From: Brachionus koreanus | Taxonomy: Eukaryota > Rotifera > Eurotatoria > Ploima > Brachionidae | Length of the DNA: 22,078 nt | Direction of reading: 5' to 3' | Assembly (NCBI GenBank): GCA_016987375.1 | Contig: PJRA01000011.1 | Coordinates: forward strand, 35,599-57,676 | Shown here: positions 537-20,653 of the stretch, one piece after another | Layout: each line of letters opens with the position of its first letter | Numbering within the stretch: position 1 is the first letter of the stretch | Made by a program: the position numbers and the translations under genes | Notes under the pieces: model-generated | What the model saw: the letters and a program-made list of their open reading frames with translations, nothing else | Database searches by the model: none | What the model was told of the DNA's origin: nothing

Positions 537-3068
537 TTATTCGTAGTGTAGAACATTGTTGGCAAACGAGTTCATGTGATGGCTCATTTGATGATGCTGC
601 ATTTGGTTGGCTATGGGCGACGTTTGACTACCATTGGGCATGGCAGCTGCGCCGTACTCGTTGCTCTTAAAAAAGTACTTTTCCAATTTGGCAAGTATGT
701 GCTTGCCGTATGTGAACTTGCGCAACGAGTGCACGTGTGGCCGAATTTTTTGCATTAGAGCGCGTCGCTGCACCGGCTCGGCCACGTCAATCATCTTTTG
801 CACGACATAATTGGCGTACTGATCCTTCATCATGGTGTAGAGCGAACAATTGGCGCTGTTGTCACTGCCGGCGCACACTTCTTCAATTAGAACAGCGCGT
901 TCGCTGCGATTCGCGTGCGTCACACACTTTTCGATCACATTGCTGGCGAATTTGTGCTGCGACAACTGCAACACTTTGCCCTTTAGCTCGCCAATAATGC
1001 GGCTCTTGTCCTCCGGGTTGCCGTGCTCGAGCACGTGCTGAATGACATAGTTGCCGTACTGGTCCTGCACGAGCCGCTCGGTACATCGGTGCAGCTCGTC
1101 GAGTATGGGCTTGGTCTGCTCGTTGTCGCAGTGCTCCAGTATGCGCTGTATGACCCGGCAACCGTACGGGTGTGTCGACAAGTGATACACCTGCTTGAGT
1201 ACGTCGCTTACTATGAAATCAATGGCCTTCGGATTGCAGCACTCGATGCACTTTTGAATGACGTGGTTGCCGTTTTGGTCCTCGATGCACTTGACCACAT
1301 TGCCCTCGAGCTCGCGGGCCATCTCGACCTGCTGCTCGCTCGATATGCTCTCGAGCGCTTTCTGTATCACACGACAGCCGTACATTTGCAGAGCCAGTGA
1401 GAGCACGTTGCCTCTAAGCTTGGCGGCGAAAGCGGCCTTGTGCTCCGGCGATCCGTGTTCGAAAAATTTCTGTATCACATAATTGCCGAACACGTCCGTC
1501 ATTAGCAAATGGCTGGACGAGACTATTTCGCGAAAGACGAGGTCTTTTTCGGGCGGCGATGCTCGCTCCAACTTTTGCTGAATGAAACGCGAGCCATGCT
1601 GGTCCATTGAGAACTCGACAAAATGGTTGATTATGTCGCGCAGTTGTAAATGCGGCTGACGATTGGTGCGAAAGTCTTCGAGCAGACGGCTGCGATTCGA
1701 GCCGCCTAGTTTTGCCTCTTGAAGCAATGCGTTTAGGCCATTGGGCGCACTTGGCGTATTCATTGTCGTGTTTGGGGTCAATGTGGCCGTAGAGCTATTG
1801 TTCGAATTAGAGTTGAGCAACGAGTAGGCCGCGTTTCGATTCTGGTAAAGCTGAGAGAATTGAAGCGAATTTGAAACGCTTACTTTGCGACCAGAGCCAG
1901 GCGCCTGAGCGTACGACGGCGTGCTATAGCTCGGATACATGCTCTCGAACAGGTTGTTCTGACTGGCGGTTAACGGACCGTTCGACTGGCTGGGCGGTGG
2001 CGACAACGCAGCCGAACTTTGCTGTTGCTGCTGTTGTTGTTGTTGCTGTTGAAGCATGCTAAGAGTGTTTGTAGCCGGACTGGTCGCTATTGCCGATGAC
2101 AAATAGGAAAAATTGTTCGTAGTGGCAATGCTAGGTGTGAATAGAGTGCCGGCTGTTGAGCCCAAACTTGAGCTAGGTGTAAAATTTTGATTCGATCCAT
2201 TGATTAGCATTGGCGATATGAGACGCATGCCCGCAGCAGTAGACGGATTGCGAAAACCCTGTTCTGGATAGTAGGAAAAATTGGACTGCTGTTGAGCGCT
2301 TTGGTACGTTGGTGTTTGATTGTCCTGGGACAGAGGCGATATGCGACCGTTTTTCATAAAATTCATGCCTTGACTTGTCGGCGACGAGCCGAGCTGAGTA
2401 GTTAACTGCTGCTGCTGCTGCTGTTGTTGTTGCTGTTGCTGAAGCTGATGATACATGATGTTATGAGCAGCTAGATTGTAGTAGTTTGGCAGGTAGTGTT
2501 GAATGGGTATGCCAAGATAGGGGTCCTGAAAGTACTGGGGCTGGCTGAACGGCTGCTGTTGGTACTGGATGCTGGTCGGGTCGGCGGCGTTGGGCGCTGC
2601 GGCAGGCGGGTACGCGACCGGATACTGCATGGGCTGTTCGTGGTCGTAGTGAGCCGAGTGGGACATGTCGGACTTTTTTACCTTGTCCGATTCGATTAGC
2701 TTGACGTTTTTGAAGCGGGCCTCGAGTTCGCGGACCGACGGCGAGTGCTCTTCGGCCAGTATCGAGTTGACCAAGTTGAGACCGACGTTGTCCGTCGACT
2801 TGGGCGACAACATGCAGCCGTTTGCTTCGCCCAGGCCGCTCATGGCGAGCTTTTTTTGCATTGGTATGGGCTGGGAGACGGTGTGCGAGTCGAACGACGA
2901 CGACCAGTCGTTTAGCTCCCAGGTTTTTTTGTCCACGTCCGATTTGGACCATTTTTCGCCCGACGACTTCGAGTCCGTCTGGTTCGGAGTGGTCGTGTTG
3001 CTGGATGAGGCAGATGCCGATGACGAGGATACGGGCGCATTGGCGGCGGCACTAGCGGCGGATAACAT
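537..3068 (-). CDS. pum: Pumilio-family (PUF) RNA-binding protein
   Basis: Cytoplasmic post-transcriptional repressor that binds UGUANAUA elements in 3' UTRs. The 843-residue protein has a low-complexity Ser/Ala/Gln/Pro-rich N-terminal half with polyQ runs at about residues 210-221 (12 Q) and 340-350 (11 Q), then a complete PUM homology domain at about 460-803. Its eight repeats carry the recognition pentads SRFIQ, NYVIQ, CRVIQ, NHVIQ, CRVIQ, NYVIQ, SNVIE and NYVVQ, the classical code reading UGUANAUA from repeat 8 to repeat 1. The start is supported by an in-frame TAA two codons upstream (3072-3074). It is shorter than human PUM1 (about 1,190 aa) or fly Pumilio (about 1,530 aa), and the loss is all in the N-terminal part; an unseen upstream exon remains possible. 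Single exon, visibly GC-richer than everything around it, which creates many long shadow frames on the opposite strand. Confidence 0.97.
2019..2051 (-). repeat. polyglutamine-coding tract 2 of Pumilio
   Basis: Eleven consecutive CAA/CAG codons encode residues 340-350. Mixed codons suggest an older, relatively stable tract. Confidence 0.85.
2406..2441 (-). repeat. polyglutamine-coding tract 1 of Pumilio
   Basis: Twelve consecutive Gln codons (residues 210-221); the last six codons are a pure CAG run, so this end could vary in length between individuals. Confidence 0.85.
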
Positions 3069-6370: not shown

Positions 6371-8230
6371 CTAGAAGTTAAAATCTTCTATTTTAAGTCC
6401 ATTTGTATCTTCATATTCATAAGTACCCTTTACAAGTGAGCTTTTTTCTTCATTTTTTACATCAATGTGTTCTTCATTTAAATCTTCGGTTTCAAAGTCG
6501 TTCTCGGTGGTTTGCTGACTATTCGTTTTTGCTTTAGTACACTTTGAAACTAGCTGAGTAAACTCAGGCTTATATAGAATCATTGTTAAGGTATCTTTGG
6601 GCAATCCGGATCTTTTATTCATAATTCTCAACTGCATAAATGGAATTAATTCTGCAAATAGCTCTTTATTCATTTCAATTAAGTATCTGTTCATTAAAAA
6701 GCTCTTCTCTGCTGCCAAATTTACAAAATCTCTAGCCATTTTTTTTCGTTTAATTTTAGCCTCTAGTAGCTTTGAATTGAACGGCTTGAAAAGTGGCATC
6801 CACAAACTTTTCGATTCATTTTCCGAATTGAAATAAAAATTGAACAAAATTGATCTAATAGATAGGCTAGCTGATATTTCTTTGAGTCTAGCCTCCTGAT
6901 GGCCTGTACATGTGCCACTTTCGAACAAAACACTAGTTTTATTTATTATGTCAGAATAAATAAAATTTTCATTTATGGACATCAATGCATCGAACTGAGT
7001 ATCAAAATCGGCATTTGATGACTTGATATTGAAAATATCAATGTAATTTTGATGTAGATATGACAAAATTATGTCCGAGTTAAGAGGCAGTTTATCGTAT
7101 ATATCATTGGGATCTGTATTTAAATTGGGTCTTTTGAATTTACTTAGATGGTTCGGAATTTTGAATTCTTCAAATGATGAATCAGCATTTTTTCGATGAA
7201 GAATTTTTCCAATCCCGCGAAAAATACTATAATTTTCATCTTTGCTTCCTGATTCTAAACTCATAGACGCAAGATTTTTTTTGTTTTTTTTATTTTCTAA
7301 GTTCACTTTTTGACCAGTACTCATTAGCTCAATGATATTGATTGCATAGCGAAGATCGCCATTACAGGTAGCGCAAACATTTTCCAAAAATTTCTTGTCC
7401 ACAAAACTGTAATGTTCCAATTTGGCTATTTTATCTATTTTTTTGCTCAAGTAAGTATTGGCTATCGGATTAAATGAAATTTCCAATACTCGAAGGTTTT
7501 TTCTTATGTCGGTCGAGAAAACCCTATGCGGATTTAGATCTGAGGAGTGTGTGGTTGTGAGTGTAAATATGAGAGAAAATTTCGAGAAACGCCTAAAATC
7601 CTGGAGAAGATTTTGAAAAATTTGAATGTCTCTGAAAGCAAAACTTGGTAATTCTTTGACAAGGAGAATTTTTTTTAAATTGCTTGAATTAGTTGGACCA
7701 AAAAGCTGATCTGACTCGTATCTTGACGATTTGAATAAAAATTGAGTAAAATTTTTTATCTGAGATTCGTACGGAGCTGCAAAACCTTCTTCATTTTGTA
7801 GATCAAATGATTTCAGATTTAGAATATTTTGGTCCCATTCAACTAATTGTACATTTTTTTCTTTACATAAGACTTTAAGAGACACGTATTTTCCGCTTCC
7901 TGACGGACCATCGATTAAAATTATAGATCCTTTGTTCTTGCTTAGACAGTCGTCAAGTAAATTGCTAAGTTGTTCTACTTTGTTTTTGTGTATAGACAAT
8001 TCGGATCGAGTTTGTGGTTCGTATTTAATGGCCAAGCTAGTCGAGTTTTCGATCCTTCGTTTTGCCGGACTGCTGAATGGCTCGGTTATTCTGTTCTTTA
8101 TCTCTTTGTTTGTTAAATTAGAAAGAGTTTGTATTTGGGACGCTGACTTTTGACTCAAAGTCTTGGAACGAGAAGACTTTATTTTGCCAACTGATGAATC
8201 GTTGAATGCTGATGCTACCCAAGACTTCAT
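6371..8230 (-). CDS. rad17: Rad17 checkpoint clamp-loader subunit
   Basis: Nuclear AAA+ protein that with Rfc2-5 loads the 9-1-1 clamp at damaged DNA for ATR signalling. The 619-residue protein starts MKSWVASAF, like the WVxxxF element near the human Rad17 N terminus. It then has the family block KYEPQTRSELSIHKNKV (about 69-85), P-loop GPSGSGKY (108-115), ILLVKELP (188-195, Walker B position), ISFNP (251-255) and the sensor-type motif CNGDLRYAIN (289-298). It ends in an acidic tail with KIEDF, recalling IEDYESD at the end of human Rad17 (681 aa). An in-frame TGA lies 9 bases upstream of the ATG. Single exon. Oddities: the Thr/Ser that normally follows the P-loop Lys is Tyr115, and the Walker B acidic pair is Lys-Glu. 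Rfc1 or Ctf18 are less likely because the order of blocks is that of Rad17. Confidence 0.92.
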   Translation of the reverse strand: MKSWVASAFNDSSVGKIKSSRSKTLSQKSASQIQTLSNLTNKEIKNRITEPFSSPAKRRIENSTSLAIKYEPQTRSELSIHKNKVEQLSNLLDDCLSKNKGSIILIDGPSGSGKYVSLKVLCKEKNVQLVEWDQNILNLKSFDLQNEEGFAAPYESQIKNFTQFLFKSSRYESDQLFGPTNSSNLKKILLVKELPSFAFRDIQIFQNLLQDFRRFSKFSLIFTLTTTHSSDLNPHRVFSTDIRKNLRVLEISFNPIANTYLSKKIDKIAKLEHYSFVDKKFLENVCATCNGDLRYAINIIELMSTGQKVNLENKKNKKNLASMSLESGSKDENYSIFRGIGKILHRKNADSSFEEFKIPNHLSKFKRPNLNTDPNDIYDKLPLNSDIILSYLHQNYIDIFNIKSSNADFDTQFDALMSINENFIYSDIINKTSVLFESGTCTGHQEARLKEISASLSIRSILFNFYFNSENESKSLWMPLFKPFNSKLLEAKIKRKKMARDFVNLAAEKSFLMNRYLIEMNKELFAELIPFMQLRIMNKRSGLPKDTLTMILYKPEFTQLVSKCTKAKTNSQQTTENDFETEDLNEEHIDVKNEEKSSLVKGTYEYEDTNGLKIEDFNF

Positions 8231-8990
8231 TATTGTTCAATTTAAATAATTTAAAAAATAACAAAATATATCTTTCAAATATAAAACTTGAACATCTTGT
8301 ACAAAACATAATTTTTGTTTTCTGTTTTTTATAAGTTAACTAATCATTCAAAATTATTTGCATAAAATTCAATTTTAATTTAAATAACTTTTTATTTGAC
8401 TCGTTTTTTTTTTAACTTTTTCAATGAAAATAAAAATATTTTGTAATAAGAATAATTTAATTTTAAAATATTTTTAATTTAAGATACAATTGAAAAATAA
8501 TCATAAAAATGATTTAAGTTATTGAATAAACAAAGAAAGTAAGTAATAAAATGTGCTAAAAAGACGCCTCCAGCCTTTAAATACCAAGCAATTTATGTAC
8601 AATTTTGGGATGCCTTCTATGACTTAGATTTATCCGATAATTAATGGTCTTCTTGGCAACTTAAACTCTTGACCTCTTGGAAATTTCATTTATCTATTTA
8701 TTCTTATTATTTTTTAAAATTTACGATTACCAGTTTTTTCAGACTTTATTATTATTAATCCGCGTATAATATATTTTAATTTATCACTTTTCTAATTTAT
8801 TAATACATAATTGATTGAACTGAAACTTTTATACAACACAAAAACGAAAATTAAATATCAATTAATCTGTTCATGCTCGCTTTTTATCTTTCTTCTTTGT
8901 ATACCAACATAAATTATCCATAACATTATTGTTTTTATTTATAATTCTATCTGGCTATGTCCGATAGCAATTCTTCATTAAGTCGAAGCA
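8231..8990. other. spacer between Rad17 and the zinc-knuckle relic
   Basis: Holds the Rad17 5' UTR and promoter (8231 to perhaps 8400) and AT-rich spacer. The stretch 8560-8690 is less AT-rich than its surroundings and could be an old coding or repeat fragment, but no frame is convincing. No core promoter motif can be placed with confidence. Confidence 0.4.
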
Positions 8991-11606: not shown

Positions 11607-13901
11607 ATGTATATCAAAAGTTTTTTGGTTATTTCAACTATTTTTTTAAAATCTATTTTATCATATGAGATAATAACCGTTTTCAACTGTGAAAAGTTTT
11701 ATAAAAAATTTTCAATTTTCGAAAATTCTGTATCAATAAAAAACGTAGAGAATTTTTCAGAAATTAAATGGTTTTGTATTAACAATTATCTTGCGACCAA
11801 ATTGGACATAATAAATTTTTATTCTATTAAAAAATTAGAAATTGATTATCAATTTGATTTTTATCAAATAAAAATGAGACTTAGAGAAACCATACAATTA
11901 AATTTTATCAATGTTGAATTGTTAAGCTTTGAAAAGCCTATTTTCATTAAATTAAAGAAATATTCTGAATTTATTTTAGTGAAATTTTTTCATTTTAAAT
12001 TATTTACACTAAAAAGATGCAGCTATAGTGATTCAAAAAATATTGGAATCTTTAAATCAGTTTATTCACTTGAATTTTCCTTTACTGTAAAATATTTTTC
12101 AAGCACTTGTCCTTTGATTTTTAAGGACTCACATTTCAATGAATTATTTTTTCACGGTCTATCTAAGTCTTTTTTGAAAATAAATATGATTGATTTTAAG
12201 CACTCAATAAAATCAAATTATTTAAATAATACTATCAAAAATTTAAAATTGAATTTTTTTAAAGGTCCTTTGACAAGGAAATTTATGATTTTTAAAAATG
12301 TGTCATCATTATATCTGACTGGTCTAGTCGATTTCATTGAGTATGATGCACTTGAATCCATTGGTTTAAATATGATCACTGTAGATATGAGTATAAATCT
12401 AATGAGAAATTCTTTCAAATGGGTAAGCGTTCTTAATAGAAATTTATACATAAATTTATCTGATCAGACATTAGTTCAACGAAATCTAGATAAAATTATT
12501 TTCGTATTTTTAAACTATGATTTAATATTTAGGATAAATCAATACATGTATCCTGATAAGGATTTTTGTTTTTTTAAAGATATTCCTGACAACAGGCTTG
12601 TATTTATACTACCTAAAAAGAGCTTCTACGGGGAGAAAATTAAGAATTGTACTTGCTTGCTTCTATGGCTTTACAAACACAAAGGTTTCTTATGGAAAAC
12701 ATATTCATACTATAACGGTTTATTACTATTAAATTGCGAGTCAGAATTAAACAATCATAGTTTAATCGAAAAATGTCAATTTTCAGAAATGATCAAGAAA
12801 TGTAAAATCAAAGAAAATATTGTAGATATGTATTTTTATTCAAATTTAATTTACGATTTTAAAATTTTTGATTTATTTTTATTCATAACTACAATTTTTC
12901 TGCTTTTAATTTGTTTAACAGCATTAACATTACATCTATTTTTATTGATTAAATTACAAAATTGTTTTCAAAAACCATTTTCAATTGAAAGACTAATGCT
13001 TTTAAGCTCAATCATAAATTTGCTGTATATTTGTTTTAAAATTTTTCATTTATCAAAAAAATGTATTTCTCCACATTCATTTTATTGCTCTTCAATTAAT
13101 AATACATTTTTCGCACAATTAATGGATTTATACGCTTACAAGTTTTTTGGCAATATTCTAAAAATTATGTCTTATTTATTTCAGCTTTTGATATCAGTCA
13201 AAAGATTGATGCATTTAAATCTAGAGTTTGATGGCAAAATCAAAAAATTATATAAAAAAAAAATCTTGAAAATTTTATTTCTAGCATTTTGTATATTTTA
13301 TCCAATTGATGAACTAATTCCTTTAGTTCTAATGACCAAAATAAACATAAGACGAGGACTTGATGAAATCGTGAACTATTTAGAGTATCCTGATGTCAGA
13401 TCATTTTTCTTAAGCTATTCTCTCACTGTTACACCAGTCAGTATTTATCAAAAATATAACCCTTTATTTTTTTTTTTCATTCTGAATTTTATCATAAATC
13501 ACTTATTTTGCATTGTACTTTTCATTTTTGTTGAGTTTAAATTATTCATGAATGCGCGATCAGCAATTATTAAAAAGCAAAAATTGAGAAAAAAAAATGC
13601 TTGTCTCAATAATCCCAATTTAGATAGATCTTTGAATGCAATTGTTTTTAATATGATGAGTATTTCAATCCTGCGATGTTTTGAAACTTTGATTTTTAGC
13701 TTAATTGTATATCAAAAATCTACTGGAAATACATCTAAGTTTAACATTTGCCATCGATATAGCAAAATTTGTACAATTATTGGCGAATTAAACGATTTAA
13801 TATTCCTAATTACTATAGCATCTAACTTAATATGCTTTTTATTTATAGAAAAAAAATTCCGTGATCACTTAAAATATTTATTAAGAAACTTCAAGAAATA
13901 A
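11607..13901 (+). CDS. orphan rhodopsin-like 7TM receptor with LRRCT-like ectodomain
   Basis: A 764-residue membrane protein. A signal peptide (about 1-20) is followed by a 400-residue extracellular region of irregular Leu/Phe/Ile-rich strands. A cysteine cluster resembling an LRR C-terminal cap follows (C321, C348, C350, C377, C390, with NCTCLLLWL at 347-355). Seven hydrophobic helices lie at about 420-449, 462-482, 509-531, 552-573, 619-646, 676-702 and 721-747. SVKR (530-533) after helix 3 sits where DRY would be. SNLICF...KKFR (739-751) in helix 7/8 echoes NPxxY...FR. This supports a rhodopsin-class GPCR-like fold with weak signature motifs. Ligand unknown. Start supported by an in-frame TAA three codons upstream (11598-11600). 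Single exon; strongly AT-rich codon use, unlike Pumilio. AATAAA at 13923-13928. An orphan, possibly lineage-expanded family is likely; a non-GPCR 7TM protein cannot be excluded. Confidence 0.75.
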   Translation: MYIKSFLVISTIFLKSILSYEIITVFNCEKFYKKFSIFENSVSIKNVENFSEIKWFCINNYLATKLDIINFYSIKKLEIDYQFDFYQIKMRLRETIQLNFINVELLSFEKPIFIKLKKYSEFILVKFFHFKLFTLKRCSYSDSKNIGIFKSVYSLEFSFTVKYFSSTCPLIFKDSHFNELFFHGLSKSFLKINMIDFKHSIKSNYLNNTIKNLKLNFFKGPLTRKFMIFKNVSSLYLTGLVDFIEYDALESIGLNMITVDMSINLMRNSFKWVSVLNRNLYINLSDQTLVQRNLDKIIFVFLNYDLIFRINQYMYPDKDFCFFKDIPDNRLVFILPKKSFYGEKIKNCTCLLLWLYKHKGFLWKTYSYYNGLLLLNCESELNNHSLIEKCQFSEMIKKCKIKENIVDMYFYSNLIYDFKIFDLFLFITTIFLLLICLTALTLHLFLLIKLQNCFQKPFSIERLMLLSSIINLLYICFKIFHLSKKCISPHSFYCSSINNTFFAQLMDLYAYKFFGNILKIMSYLFQLLISVKRLMHLNLEFDGKIKKLYKKKILKILFLAFCIFYPIDELIPLVLMTKINIRRGLDEIVNYLEYPDVRSFFLSYSLTVTPVSIYQKYNPLFFFFILNFIINHLFCIVLFIFVEFKLFMNARSAIIKKQKLRKKNACLNNPNLDRSLNAIVFNMMSISILRCFETLIFSLIVYQKSTGNTSKFNICHRYSKICTIIGELNDLIFLITIASNLICFLFIEKKFRDHLKYLLRNFKK

Positions 13902-14331: not shown

Positions 14332-15880
14332 TTAACTTATTAGACAAATTGATAGAAAAAATCTAATTCATCAAGATTTATGAATTTTGAAATTTTTGAT
14401 TTATTTAAGAATAAAAATTAAAATAATAAGTATTTACATCTGATTGCTAATGACATTTAATAATTAAAATTATTATCTAATTATTAAATAATTAAATAGC
14501 ACGATAGTAAAAATCAGACTTTGCCAGGCAATTACAGCGGTTGTAATAAAAACGAAGCGGTACACGTTTACCATTGTCGTTTAGAACCAGATTTTAATCA
14601 ACCTCTTACTCAATAATGGGATTTATATATATTTATTAATACTTATTACAAATTAAGTATCTATTGACTCATTTTGATCCTCATAAGAATAGGAATATTC
14701 TTTTTGCTTTTACGAAAAGAAATAAATTCACATTTATAAATTTTAATCGAAAATTTTCATTCCAAATATTATTTGTTTTATTTTTTTTAATTTGTGATTT
14801 GATGTGATTTAAGAATATTTAAAAATAATTTTTTTTTTAATTAACTGATTTTTTAAGAAGATATAATATAGAAACCAACATTATTTTGAATCGTCATTAT
14901 TGTTAAATTATTAATCTGCATACTTAAAAAACTAGAAAAAAAGATTTTTTTGGAGGAGTAAAAAAAATTTTGACCGCAGCTCGTCAAAAATTCAAGAAAA
15001 AAGAAAAGTTTTTTTGGGATCGATTGCGTAATCAATAAAAATTTGTTCAATTAATTTTCAAAATATTTAATCTAACTTTTACAGATTAGCGGAAAAATTT
15101 AAATTATTTAACTTGGATATTTTGTTTTTTTAAAAGAATTCTTTATTCAAACTATCAGTAGTTTTTTAAATCTATTTATCATATATTAATTAAAATTAAT
15201 AATTTATTATAATACTTGAAAAGTGGTTTTAAAAACGACTTAAGTGTTAATCTGTCTCTTTTAAACTTTTTTTCTTAAGGTAAAAATTTAAGACAAAATT
15301 ATTTTTTGTGAAAAATTAACAGTCTCTATGCTTTAGATTGTTTCTTTTTTCCAACAAATTTTCTATTAAAAATATTTAACAAAAATAAATAGTTTTGAAA
15401 TGTGACGGTGACACAGAGGGCGCTTTTTTTAGGCCTCTTGAACAAGCTTTATCAATCAAAAAAAATAACGAAATTATTCGCTATTCAATTGTTATTCAGT
15501 TTATGTCGTAAATTTTTCATAAAAAAAGCTAAAATATGGCCTCACCAATGACGCCACCAAAAGTTCTTATAAATTGAAAAAAAAATTAAATGTTTTGCTA
15601 GATGATGATGTCATCAAGAAAGCTTCAAAATTGGCATTATTGACTCATTTTTTGATAGTTGCTATTCAATAATAAATAGAAACTACCACAAATCGCTTTT
15701 TATTGGATTGACTATAAAATAAATAACTTAAACTGATTCTGAATTCACTGGAAAATTTATTACGTATTAATTTACAAGCTTAGCAACTAAAAAATTTAAA
15801 CTTTTTTAAATATTGAAAAAAAATTATAAATTAAAAATTCTTAAAATTAATTCGAGCAGATTGAAACAAACATTTGAAAG
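14332..15880. other. spacer upstream of the VHL-calpain gene
   Basis: No complete gene. On the minus strand, 14495-14593 is a stop-to-stop run of 33 codons of ordinary-looking protein composition (contains NDNGKRVPLRFYYNRCNC), not recognised. The minus-strand frame at 14853-15050 is Phe/Lys/Ser-rich and looks like chance. 15400-15620 is somewhat less AT-rich with no identifiable content. The last 40 bases are the 5' UTR of the next gene, with GAGCAG (AG at 15859-15860) as a possible acceptor. Confidence 0.4.
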
Positions 15881-16679
15881 ATGGACCAAGTACAGCAAAA
15901 ATTTAGCGACTTAAGTCGAAAATTGATTAATCGAGTGGCTAAAACGGATATTTTTTCTGTTTTTGACTTTCTTGAGTTAGAGAATTTAAAATCGATTTCA
16001 CCTAATAATAAGAATAATATTACTATAATAAATTTTTCAGGTAAAAGAGTAAAACTTATTTGGATAGATTATAAAGGCAAAAAACAGGAAGATCATGCTA
16101 GATTGCTTAAAGAAAATTTTGGCTTTTATGAAAAAATAGGTACTTATTCGAACCATTTGTATCGTATTCAGTTTGATGCAGATGATTCTTCGTCCGAATC
16201 AATTCATTTCAGGATTCCTGAAGATAAAAGCCTTTTCTATTTTGGCAATGAAAATGGATTGGAAGAAAATTATCTCAAGCTTGTTTATGACTCATGTTGG
16301 ATTACAAATCCTTCAATAAAATCTGAACATTTGGACCTTTTAGAGAAATTTTTTGACCATAAACCAGATCAATTAACGAAAACAGAAACTCTACTTATTC
16401 AAAGTTATAGCTACGATGATTCAAGTGAAACAAGTGATTTGATTAATTCATTTTATGGGAGTTTTAGCGTTGAAAATAAATTTACTGATCCATTTTTTAA
16501 TCCACTAAATAGACTTGAACCAAAATTTACAGTTAAAAGAATAAGTGAACATGAGGTAAGCATTGAAAAAAAAGTATTTCCTTCTGTCTATTTGGGAGAA
16601 GAATTTTGTTTTACAATTAAAAATGATACTGATGCAGACATTGTTCTTTATTGGATTAGCTATAATGGCGTGGCCGAAA
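15881..16679 (+). other. exon 1: first VHL-like beta domain and first half of the second
   Basis: The 266 codons plus one base end at AAA|GTAAGT, a strong donor at 16680-16685. VHL copy 1 reads KLIWIDYKG (58-66) and GTYSNHLY (87-94). T88, Y89, H92 and Y94 sit at the positions of human VHL S111, Y112, H115 and W117. The region between the domains (about 115-240) is acidic and shows no known motif. Copy 2 starts at FTIKNDTDADIVLYWISYNG (244-263) and is cut by the intron right after VAE. Confidence 0.8.
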
Positions 16680-19600
16680 GTAAGTTTTTTGTTTTTTAAA
16701 TTAGCTAAAAGAAAGATATTTTCCTTATTAAGAAATTAGAATTTTAAATTATTACCTCACTATTTAACAAATTACTAAGATCTTACAATTTAAAAATAAC
16801 CAATGCACCAAAATTTACGCCCCGATTACCGAGTTAAAAATTAAATTTAAAAATAAAACTTTTTATGTTTTAAAAGCCAAAATTAAACATTTAATTTTTG
16901 TCTTTTTTTTATATAATTTTAAAAAGTCAGTTAAAAAATAAAAGTTTTTTTGAAAATATTCTTTTCAAAAGCGTAAATGTTAATGGTCTATAGTTTATCA
17001 ATAATTGGTTTTATTAATAACTAATTCAGTTTTAAAAAATATATAAATTTAATACATTTTTAATTATTTTTAATATTTAATTTAGTTTTATTTGTTACTA
17101 ATATAACTTACGAAAAATAAATACAATTAAAACATTTAAAAGAAAAACACCAATAAAAAATGGAAAAAAAATATTCTATCATGATAATCTTGTCCATTGA
17201 TTATAGATGTACTAGACGTCGTTTTTTTTTCTTATTTTAAAATAAATAATTGAGGAGGAACATTCCTGGGTTTGTCCGAATAGCCTTCGCCTTCGTTTAA
17301 ACCCTCAAATTTGAAATTTTTTGATTTTTACCAAAAAAAAGACTAAGAAAGATGAATTTAAGTTTTTGAGAAAATTTTATTAAAGATCATTAAAGTATAA
17401 AGTTATAAATTATAAAAGGATTATAGAAGTCGTATACTAGACGTCTTTTCGTCATTAATATCATTTTCGTTAGCAATCATCATGGATTTTATTTGATTAT
17501 TAGTTGTTATTTGATAGAGTTTTGAGTAAGAAAGTTCCCGTATTCCCTGGTTCGATTATGCTGCACCACAAGTTAAAACACGTCTTTGGACCATGCACCA
17601 AAGTACATCTCGCCCATGCTATAATGTTGTTAACTTTGAACGCATAAAAAATAAAAAACAATTTTTTTTTAATTTTTTTAAATAAAAAATTATTTTTGAT
17701 TACGCTATTAGCACATGCTCTAATAGCGTAATCACGCGTTTAGGTCCACATAAAACACTGAAAGCCTTAGTTTAATGCGTCATCAAGACTCGATTTTAAA
17801 GTAAAAAATAATGTTTTATTTAAAAAAATTAAAAAAAAAAAATTTTTTTATTTTTCATGCGTTCAAAGTTAACAACATTATAGCATGGGCGAGATTGTAC
17901 TTTGGTGCATCGTCCAAAGACTTGTTTTAACTTGTGGTGCAGCATAATCGAACGAGGGAATACGGTAATTTATTTATTTATTTTCTGTATCGAGCTAATG
18001 CTCCTTCAGAATAAAATAAAATAAAATATAGTAAATCTTACTATTTAATAATTAAATGTGTGAAAATGTTAGTTAAAAAATTAAATATGAAAGGAATAGT
18101 TTTCCCATGCTTATTAGCAATAAACGGGTTAGTTATTCCGCGCCAATTAGATATTTTTTTTTTTAAAGTATAAACAAATCTTAGAAAATAGATAAAATGC
18201 ACGATATAATTTTGTTTTGATAATTAATAACAACTTAGTTGAAAAAAATCTCGCACTATTATCTTAATCCCCAATCAATTCTTTATAATTTAAATTTTTT
18301 AGTCTGAACATAGAATAGTACTATCAAGATTAACTAGGTAAAATCAAAAAAAAAATGAGCTAAAAAGTTACAATTAAGTAAAATTTAATTTAATTATTAA
18401 GACTGCATTGATGTATTAATTTATTTCATTAACCGCCCGTCAAGTCGATGTAAGATAATAAAAATCTTTATAAAAACACGCCAAGTGTTGTGGATAATTA
18501 TACGTAGATAAAATATTTGAAGACTTAAAAAATAAACTTAAACGTTGAAAGTTTATTTATTTAAAAACAAGTTTTAAAAATATTTATAGACCTTCTAAAG
18601 ATGATTTTTTAAAAATGATAGTTTTAGTGTCACAAAATTTATAAAACATATTAAGAAAAATCTTTCATCAAAAAAAAATTATTTAATATTTCAAATTCTT
18701 TGAAAATTAATTATTCAAAACTAAATAAAACTTTCTAAAATTGAAAGTAATAAAAAAAGATAAAATGTAGTGATAGAACATATTTAAATATTCATAATAA
18801 CTAACATATAAATCTTTTATCAAAAGGAGATTTTTTGAATCGCCATTATTAGCTAAGATTTAAAAATTGAATTAATCGTTTACCATAGGTAAATTCTCTA
18901 GTATAATTTAAAAAAGGAAAAAGAAAGAAAAATATTAAAAATAGATAAAATGAAATTAAAAAGTAACAGGATACATATGTTTAATTACCTGATGGCTCAG
19001 GAAAAAAGGGGGAAATAGTGAGTAATTACAGCTCCTTGTGAGACCTCTGCTTTTATTGGATATTGATCACTTAAGTGACCATGTACATTTACTTTAAAAT
19101 ATCTGGAATGAAGAAATTATTTTATTCAGAAAATAAGATAGGGTGGAAGTTTTATCTTAATTAATTTAGTCTCTCATGCCAAACTCTGTCAAAGGCTTTA
19201 GAAATGTCGAAATATTGATAATTCATTAGAAAAAATATTTATTTATTATTAAGATAAATTAATTTTTGAAAGATTAATTACTTAATTAATAAATAATATT
19301 ATTAAAATAAGTATAAAATAGGTACTAATTTTTTATATTTGTTGCTTTTAATACTTAATTAAACATTTTAGAAATTTACTATTTGGTTTGTGAAAAGAAA
19401 AGTTTAGATACTAGAAAAAACTAAATTAGATACTAAATGAAATTTATTTTAATATTTTTTAAGTTTTTTATAATTAACTATTTTGCAACTCAAAAGATAT
19501 ATTTTTCAATAATATTCATTAAAGAATGGAGCGATTTGAATAATGGTAATTTTGTGGAACAAAATAGTTATTTAGGTAATGTTTGGGCACTTTCTGATGG

Positions 19601-20653
19601 ATCCATAACGCACATTTTTCAGCTTGGTAAAAACTTGTTTGCAAATACAGGCTGTTCAGTGAGTATCTCTGAATTTGGTGAACCGTTCGACTTTGGTATC
19701 GAAAATTACCAACCTGAAAAATCAAGTTCAATGATCATCCACCCAAATGGACCAACAGAATACAATTCAGAACAAGGTCAAATCGGAGACTGTTGGCTTT
19801 TGGAATCCCTAATTTCCATATATGCTATTTATCCAGAGAAAATAAGATCTTTATTTATTCAACCCGAAATGGTTAACTCTACTGGTGTAGTTATGGTTAA
19901 ATTATGGAGTAAAGATAATGAATGTTGGCGTTTAGTCATTATGGACGATAATCTTCCCTTGAACAATGACTCCAAATGGTTTTGTTCGAGTCCTCTTGGT
20001 GAATTTAACAATATATTTTGGGTTTCTTTGCTAGAAAAAGCGTTCGCTAAGCAAATAGCTAGTTTTATAAATTTAGAAAGTAGATTAAACAATATTACAA
20101 TTGGGGATACTTTTAGTCTGATATTAGGACCAGAAGTTAAAGAAACTGAAGGTTTTGATGTGCCAGAAGATGAAAATGATTTTTCTGTTTTTGATAAATT
20201 GGTTGAAAATTTTAAGAAGAAAAATTTGTGCTGTATGGCAAGTCGTGACTCAAAAAATTTAATTGATACAGAAACTGGCATGGTAAGTTATCATGGTTAT
20301 GGGCTTTTAGACATTAAAGAAAATGTATGTGACAGTGAGTTTGTGTTTGTCAAATGTCATAACACATGGAGCGAAGGAGGGGGTATTTTTTGATAAGTTT
20401 TAGAAAAAATTAAATATCAAAATTTTTCTTAAAGAGTGGTCTGGAGATTGGAGTGATTCTTCTGATTTATGGAATAAATATCCTGAAATCAAAGAAGCTT
20501 TAAATCATGAGAATGAAGATGATGGAACATTCTGGTATAACCATTATTTTTTTATTTAATGTTTATCTCATTTAAAATGTAAATTTTTCTAGGATTGAAA
20601 AAAAAGATTTTAATCAAGCGTTTGCACGTGTTTGGATAGCTAATTTGTTTTAG
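15881..20653 (+). CDS. tandem VHL-like beta domains fused to a calpain protease core (4 exons)
   Basis: Exons 15881-16679, 19525-20382, 20435-20534 and 20593-20653 join in phase to 605 codons plus TAG. Residues about 46-113 and 243-293 are VHL beta-type domains (conserved W61 and W258). Residues about 340-600 are a calpain CysPc core: QGQIGDCWLLESL with C356 and oxyanion Q350, H523 in SYHGYGLLDI, N546 in CHNTW, then EWSGDWSD and DDGTFW-I. Triad spacing (167 and 23) is close to human CAPN2 (157 and 24). There is no C2-like domain III and no EF-hand region. No Elongin-C-binding BC-box was found. An in-frame TGA two codons before the ATG sets the start. Splice sites are GTAAGT/AAAG, GTATTT/AAAG and GTATAA/CTAG. 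A Ca2+-dependent protease with VHL-guided substrate choice is inference. If the first intron is retained, a 272-aa VHL-only product ending at 16699 results. Confidence 0.8.
17538..17965. mobile_element. fold-back element with long inverted arms
   Basis: The left arm begins CCGTATTCCCTGGTTCGATT (17538). The right arm, reverse-complemented from 17965, begins CCGTATTCCCTCGTTCGATT. Over the first 113 bases or so the arms differ by only about four substitutions and one indel; similarity continues through A/T runs to roughly 17696 and 17808. The unique middle contains a perfect 15-bp hairpin, TGATTACGCTATTAG (17697-17711) with its complement at 17720-17734 around an 8-base loop. No open reading frame, so a non-autonomous MITE or fold-back transposon. 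No obvious target-site duplication. Its superfamily is not recognised. High arm identity implies recent arrival. Confidence 0.85.
17966..18030 (-). repeat. LINE-3'-end-like hairpin with A/T-rich tails
   Basis: Contains CGAGCTAATGCTCC (perfect GAGC/GCTC stem, TAAT loop) with (TTTA)n to the left and (AAATA)n to the right. Read on the minus strand it resembles the 10171-10202 motif. It directly abuts the fold-back element. It may be the 3' end of the minus-strand LINE whose RT relic lies at 18970-19224, since order and orientation agree. Confidence 0.4.
18970..19224 (-). pseudogene. non-LTR reverse transcriptase relic (DISKAFD block)
   Basis: On the minus strand one frame gives YFDISKAFDRVWHERL near 19170-19220, a hallmark block of Jockey/CR1-type RTs. 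A second frame gives KLPPYLIF, then RYFKVNVHGHLSDQYPIKA and EVSQGAVI, matching the family's 'YPI.AGVPQGSVL' block with G-to-E and P-to-S changes. Two internal stops and a frameshift separate them. It lies antisense inside intron 1 of the VHL-calpain gene. Dead copy; more decayed than the fold-back element. Confidence 0.82.
19525..20653 (+). other. exons 2-4: rest of VHL copy 2 and the calpain catalytic core
   Basis: Exon 2 (858 bases) resumes VHL copy 2 as WSDLNNGNFVEQNSYLGNVW (268-287), giving S281, Y282, N285 and W287 at the human S111, Y112, H115 and W117 positions. It then runs into the protease. Introns of 52 bp (20383-20434) and 58 bp (20535-20592) are needed to restore EGGEWSGDW and DDGTFWIEKKDF. 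If exon 2 is not used, an ATG at 19437 would give a hydrophobic 29-residue leader in place of the VHL half. That is less likely, since those residues fit no calpain and the acceptor joins in phase. The protein ends ARVWIANLF, right after the core. Confidence 0.85.
20283..20288 (+). promoter_or_regulatory. cryptic consensus splice donor inside the calpain core
   Basis: ATG|GTAAGT sits inside codons for GMVSYH, just upstream of catalytic H523. It is a better donor by consensus than the GTATTT at 20383. Using it would remove the catalytic His and Asn. The conserved coding on both sides indicates it is normally read through. Confidence 0.4.

Follow-up and report, generated by a model that had tools for sequence, protein, structure and literature searches.

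Structure of the gene

The window analysed here, a stretch of 22,078 nucleotides from the rotifer Brachionus koreanus (C21:35599-57676 in an assembly of 83.3 Mb and 92 contigs), carries on its forward strand, at 15881..20653, a predicted gene in which two beta domains of the VHL type are joined to the core of a calpain cysteine protease. This VHL-calpain is real and unusual among calpains, and B. koreanus shares it with two further species of Brachionus.

The gene model has four exons (15881-16679, 19525-20382, 20435-20534 and 20593-20653) and predicts a product of 605 residues, with a stop codon at 20651-20653. It rests on two open blocks, 15878-16699 (273 codons) and 19437-20393 (318 codons). 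The original prediction held that the first ends in half a VHL domain and that the missing half opens the second, and this was borne out: the donor AAA/GTAAGT after 16679 and the acceptor AAAG/AATGG before 19525 make an in-phase junction. The two other introns are short (52 and 58 bases). All introns run GT...AG, and G+C content is 29-34% in the exons and 13.5-22% in the introns.

Exon 1, whose donor is also present in a tandem copy described below, encodes an N-terminal helix, the first VHL unit (VHL1, residues ~45-125, 16013..16255), a helical linker, an F-x-D segment with the motif KFTDPFF (residues 200-206, 16478..16498), and the first part of the second VHL unit (VHL2, residues 232-267, 16574..16679). 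Intron 1 (16680..19524) is 2845 bases long and contains a palindromic repeat at 17527-17976. Exon 2 provides the rest of VHL2 (19525..19700, to ~residue 325) and most of the calpain core, which starts at residue 340 (19743..20382 in this exon). The core continues through exon 3 (EWSGDWSDSS...DDGTF) and ends in exon 4, with the stop codon.

Relatives of the VHL-calpain

Two proteins from other species have the same order of VHL1, linker, VHL2 and calpain core, and both may themselves be gene predictions: P0002 from B. calyciflorus, an unnamed protein of 612 aa (51% identical), and P0001, a partial calpain of B. plicatilis with 617 aa (69% identical). P0001 differs in ending at DDGTF, the site of the last intron of the window gene, and in having 29 further N-terminal residues, for which a tblastn search of the 2.1 kb upstream in the window found no counterpart. 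P0002 matches Peptidase_C2 and, over two stretches, Pfam VHL at 35.2 bits, with two other families below their cut-offs; P0001 matches Pfam VHL in one stretch, at 23.9 bits. Queries with residues 1-345 of P0002 or with alignment A1 brought no new VHL-bearing relatives. The relative searches scored the best 7991 and 7997 candidates by shared words, and the restriction to Brachionus holds within those.

It had been claimed that no protein of such architecture has been described. The literature searched agrees, as no paper joining a VHL beta domain and a calpain was found. One survey covers 41 architectures of calpains, and VHL is not among the 24 partner domains that it counts (PMC3563603); in what is available of this and a second calpain survey no VHL partner appears and the word is absent (PMC3563603, PMC4631099). 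In databases, however, P0002 is already annotated with both Pfam families. As far as searched, the combination is thus known only as unremarked database annotation.

Two VHL-type units

On the spliced product, Pfam VHL (PF01847) scores 30.3 bits over two stretches (E 4.2e-7, cut-off 21). Taken alone, VHL1 (19.9 bits) and VHL2 (17.1 bits) both fall slightly below the cut-off. With Pfam at E up to 10, nothing beyond VHL and Peptidase_C2 was detected. A profile of seven rows combining VHL1 and VHL2 across species (A3) was compared with the PDB, and all 24 matches at E up to 10 were pVHL, with a best E of only 0.22; six of its seven rows match Pfam VHL individually at E up to 1. Predicted models give the pVHL beta-sandwich fold for VHL2 and for VHL1, the latter modelled separately because calpain and VHL2 (model residues 195-612) took up the fold matches listed for the P0002 model. 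In the predicted model, helices follow VHL1. Profile matches and models thus concur with the two VHL-type beta domains first proposed for this gene.

The alpha domain of pVHL, with its BC box, binds Elongin C/Cul2. Its proposed absence from the VHL-calpain agrees with our searches: VHL_C had no match at E up to 10 in the VHL-calpain proteins, and a strict BC-box pattern was found in none of the three. A looser pattern gave a single match in the window protein and another in P0001, in positions that do not correspond. Apart from these differences, the VHL-calpain departs from pVHL in having two VHL units per chain, followed by a protease.

The hydroxyproline site of pVHL consists of Trp88, Tyr98, His110, Ser111, His115 and Trp117, according to the part of the source available (PMC9528729). 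In VHL2 these positions are occupied by W, W, N/N/A, S, N and W (window/P0001/P0002), so that W88, S111 and W117, three of the six, are identical to pVHL in all three proteins, whereas Y98 is replaced by W and H115 by N in each. In VHL1, as read off the alignment, position 88 is W, 111 is T/S/T, 115 is H and 117 is Y/Y/F. Neither unit has the complete pocket, and recognition of a hydroxylated substrate, as originally proposed, is therefore not supported. A ligand groove seems to be kept in the VHL units; a full hydroxyproline reader, judging from these residues, probably is not.

Calpain core

Peptidase_C2 (PF00648) matches residues 340-602 at 138 bits, against a cut-off of 23.8, and covers profile positions 42-296 of 297, the first 41 being unmatched. 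C356, in the box QGQIGDCW (19791..19793), H523 (20292..20294) and N546 (20361..20363) were found exactly where they had been predicted, and align with the catalytic triad of calpain-9. The catalytic Cys, His and Asn and the QGxxGDCW box are shared with the cores of human calpain-1, -3 and -9 (family C2). Unlike these, the VHL-calpain has neither a C2-like domain III nor penta-EF-hands, the protein ending with the core, and it carries ~85-100 extra residues, corresponding to VHL2, ahead of the active-site box.

Calcium ligands of CAPN1 were taken from the accessible part of PMC4057710. In site 1, both side-chain ligands are replaced: D106 by N in all three VHL-calpains, and E185, located by counting from Cys115, by I, I and R in the window protein, P0001 and P0002. 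Site 2 keeps E302, D309 and D331 in all three, E302 and D309 being shared with the human calpains above, whereas its E333 is replaced by T, T and A in the same order. The protein thus does not have both calcium sites of the classical protease core, and calcium would not have to be the main switch of a VHL-calpain. Androglobin is another animal protein in which a calpain domain is combined with a fold that binds ligands, here a globin (PMC13331133); it differs in partner domain and size.

Position of VHL2

The protease had been described as following the VHL domains. This is right for VHL1, but motif spacing and model alignment suggest that VHL2 lies inside the calpain subdomain PC1, a placement that we consider likely. 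In all nine other calpains tested (P0003, P0004, P0010 and six loci of the B. koreanus genome), a motif [FY]-x-D-x-x-F precedes QGxxG[DNS]C[WY] by 48-67 residues; the sample left out loci whose exon lacks this region, and the fungal P0005-P0009. In the three VHL-calpains the corresponding KFxDxF stands 150 residues ahead of the QG box, and the excess is about the size of VHL2. KFTDPFF is accordingly proposed to be the N-terminal motif of PC1, on the strength of this spacing. Of the 23 calpain rows that VIA-align listed for the P0002 model, 11 begin upstream of VHL2 (seven at model residue 177-178) and 12 at 340-353; the model has a predicted local distance difference test score (pLDDT) below 50 at 163-242.

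A protein of 566 aa from ENA (P0003) offers a comparison: it has an FTDPFF segment and a calpain core (42% identity over 46%) but lacks VHL2, its QG box lying 48 residues past the motif, and has no Pfam VHL. With P0003 in the profile, hhalign paired KFTDPFF with FTDPLF and KRISE with MRPFE.

Several results limit the case for the insertion. The spacing motif matches twice in three of the nine other calpains (P0004 at 32, L004 and L005 at 69), and a test of the insertion by profile gain showed none in any of the three VHL-calpains. The shuffle controls of the hhalign comparison were weak or negative: with P0003 included, 23 of 300 column shuffles scored equally, without it 295 of 300, and with P0003 alone 299 of 300, although only 4 of 300 began as early. 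There is also an alternative register, in which KWKRPTEL of calpain-1 stands opposite residues near 325-332, and the insertion may therefore precede or follow that motif. The idea that P0003 keeps a tail of VHL1 was dropped, as 961, 472 and 927 of 1000 shuffles were equally good.

Possible function

We conclude, with a probability of about 60%, that the locus encodes in one gene a non-classical calpain using two VHL beta sandwiches as protein-binding modules. The protease would be active, the VHL units would bind peptides, and binding would steer or gate cleavage. VHL1, in front and followed by a helical linker, would most likely recruit a partner or substrate. VHL2 is most likely lodged within PC1, with the N-terminal F-x-D motif on one side and the active-site QGxxGDCW on the other, and from there its ligand could in addition control the opening and closing of the cleft.

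The same features could mean that the VHL units are mainly structural, VHL2 forming an intramolecular gate or a dimer interface that replaces calcium control, with no substrate recruited. VHL2 is apparently inserted just ahead of the stretch with calcium site 1, and it is this site that has lost its side-chain ligands while E302 and D309 of site 2 persist. The aromatic pocket positions W88 and W117 are nevertheless conserved, which suggests a kept ligand groove, though they may be fold residues, and we regard a mainly structural role as unlikely. A more specific version of the binding-module reading places VHL2 in PC1 beside the ligand-less site 1, where a peptide or hydroxylated ligand would turn protease activity on or off and substrate recruitment would fall to VHL1, making a ligand-gated rather than calcium-gated calpain; we propose it only tentatively and regard it as improbable.

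Less probable still is a protease directed by hydroxylation, in which hydroxyproline recognition by the VHL units would make cleavage depend on oxygen or 2-oxoglutarate. The residues in its favour are W88, S111 and W117 in VHL2 and W88, S/T111 and H115 in VHL1, each in all three proteins; the incomplete pockets, with the two VHL2 replacements constant across species, argue against it. Exon-wise searches of the genome with PF01847 returned only the two VHL-calpain copies (E 0.02 and 0.04), with none at 0.001, and VHL_C (PF17211) and the HIF-1 ODD (PF11413) had no match in searches that were weak, the controls being likewise without match. Because of these controls, a loss of the HIF-VHL pathway can be raised only as a possibility. 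Four matches to PF13640 were by eye unlike HIF prolyl hydroxylases.

Innovation in calpains has been described as the addition of domains at either terminus of the core (PMC3563603). With a VHL fold set within the core, a calpain would be rewired in a further manner, and VHL recognition would be coupled to direct cleavage rather than to ubiquitination. Should the groove bind a peptide, a simple pull-down could find the ligand, which makes the question testable.

A tandem copy

A segment containing the VHL-calpain and a receptor-like gene of 764 residues is repeated ~21.6 kb downstream (L009, C21:68001-77900). In this repeat the reading frame of the receptor gene is split in two, and the calpain gene lacks four bases close to the end of exon 3 and has a shifted C-terminal frame. 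Protein identity between the calpain copies is 92% for exon 1 and 86% for exon 2. Non-synonymous over synonymous divergence (dN/dS, NG86) is 0.0464/0.0402 in exon 1 and 0.0682/0.1373 in exon 2, and two other methods agree.

The exon 1 ratio of ~1 raises the possibility that the window copy, as a duplicate, is in decay or has been repurposed and retains little function as a protease. Of the 62 residues that differ in exons 1 and 2, P0001 as outgroup points to a change in the window copy at 30 and in the other copy at 8, and leaves 24 undecided. With P0002 the imbalance is smaller (18 and 10, 34 undecided). The window copy is moreover intact in its three catalytic residues, its frame and every splice site, and the shifted C-terminus belongs to the other copy, so that this view of the window copy appears improbable.

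The outer ~75 bases of intron 1 are still alike in both copies, and the middles carry different palindromes, at 17527-17976 in the window and 6014-6748 in L009. Donor and acceptor are thus retained although the middle of the intron differs. This, together with a junction that splits a VHL fold restored by splicing, and with continuous proteins of the same kind in two other species (possibly gene predictions too), leads us to reject a false joining of separate VHL and calpain genes, for which the 2.8 kb between the blocks and an ATG at 19437 opening the second could be invoked.

The copies differ at ten residues of VHL1, and eight of these, counted by eye, fall at residues 65-84 (16073-16132), just past W-I-D-Y. 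This clustering could reflect a shift in specificity, a relaxation of constraint, or gene conversion acting elsewhere. The window palindrome resembles a miniature inverted-repeat transposable element, one arm having at least 47 genome matches, its own two arms included, among the best 40 of 105 candidates.

Neighbouring genes

The receptor-like gene occupies 11607-13898 on the forward strand as a single-exon frame, and its product looks like a membrane receptor by inspection; Pfam gave nothing at E up to 0.1. Counting itself and the tandem copy, it has 51 genome matches, of which 41 extend over more than 600 residues, which makes it part of a large lineage family without a name. On the reverse strand, the window also contains a Rad17-like gene (6371-8233) and a Pumilio-type gene with PUF repeats (537-3068).
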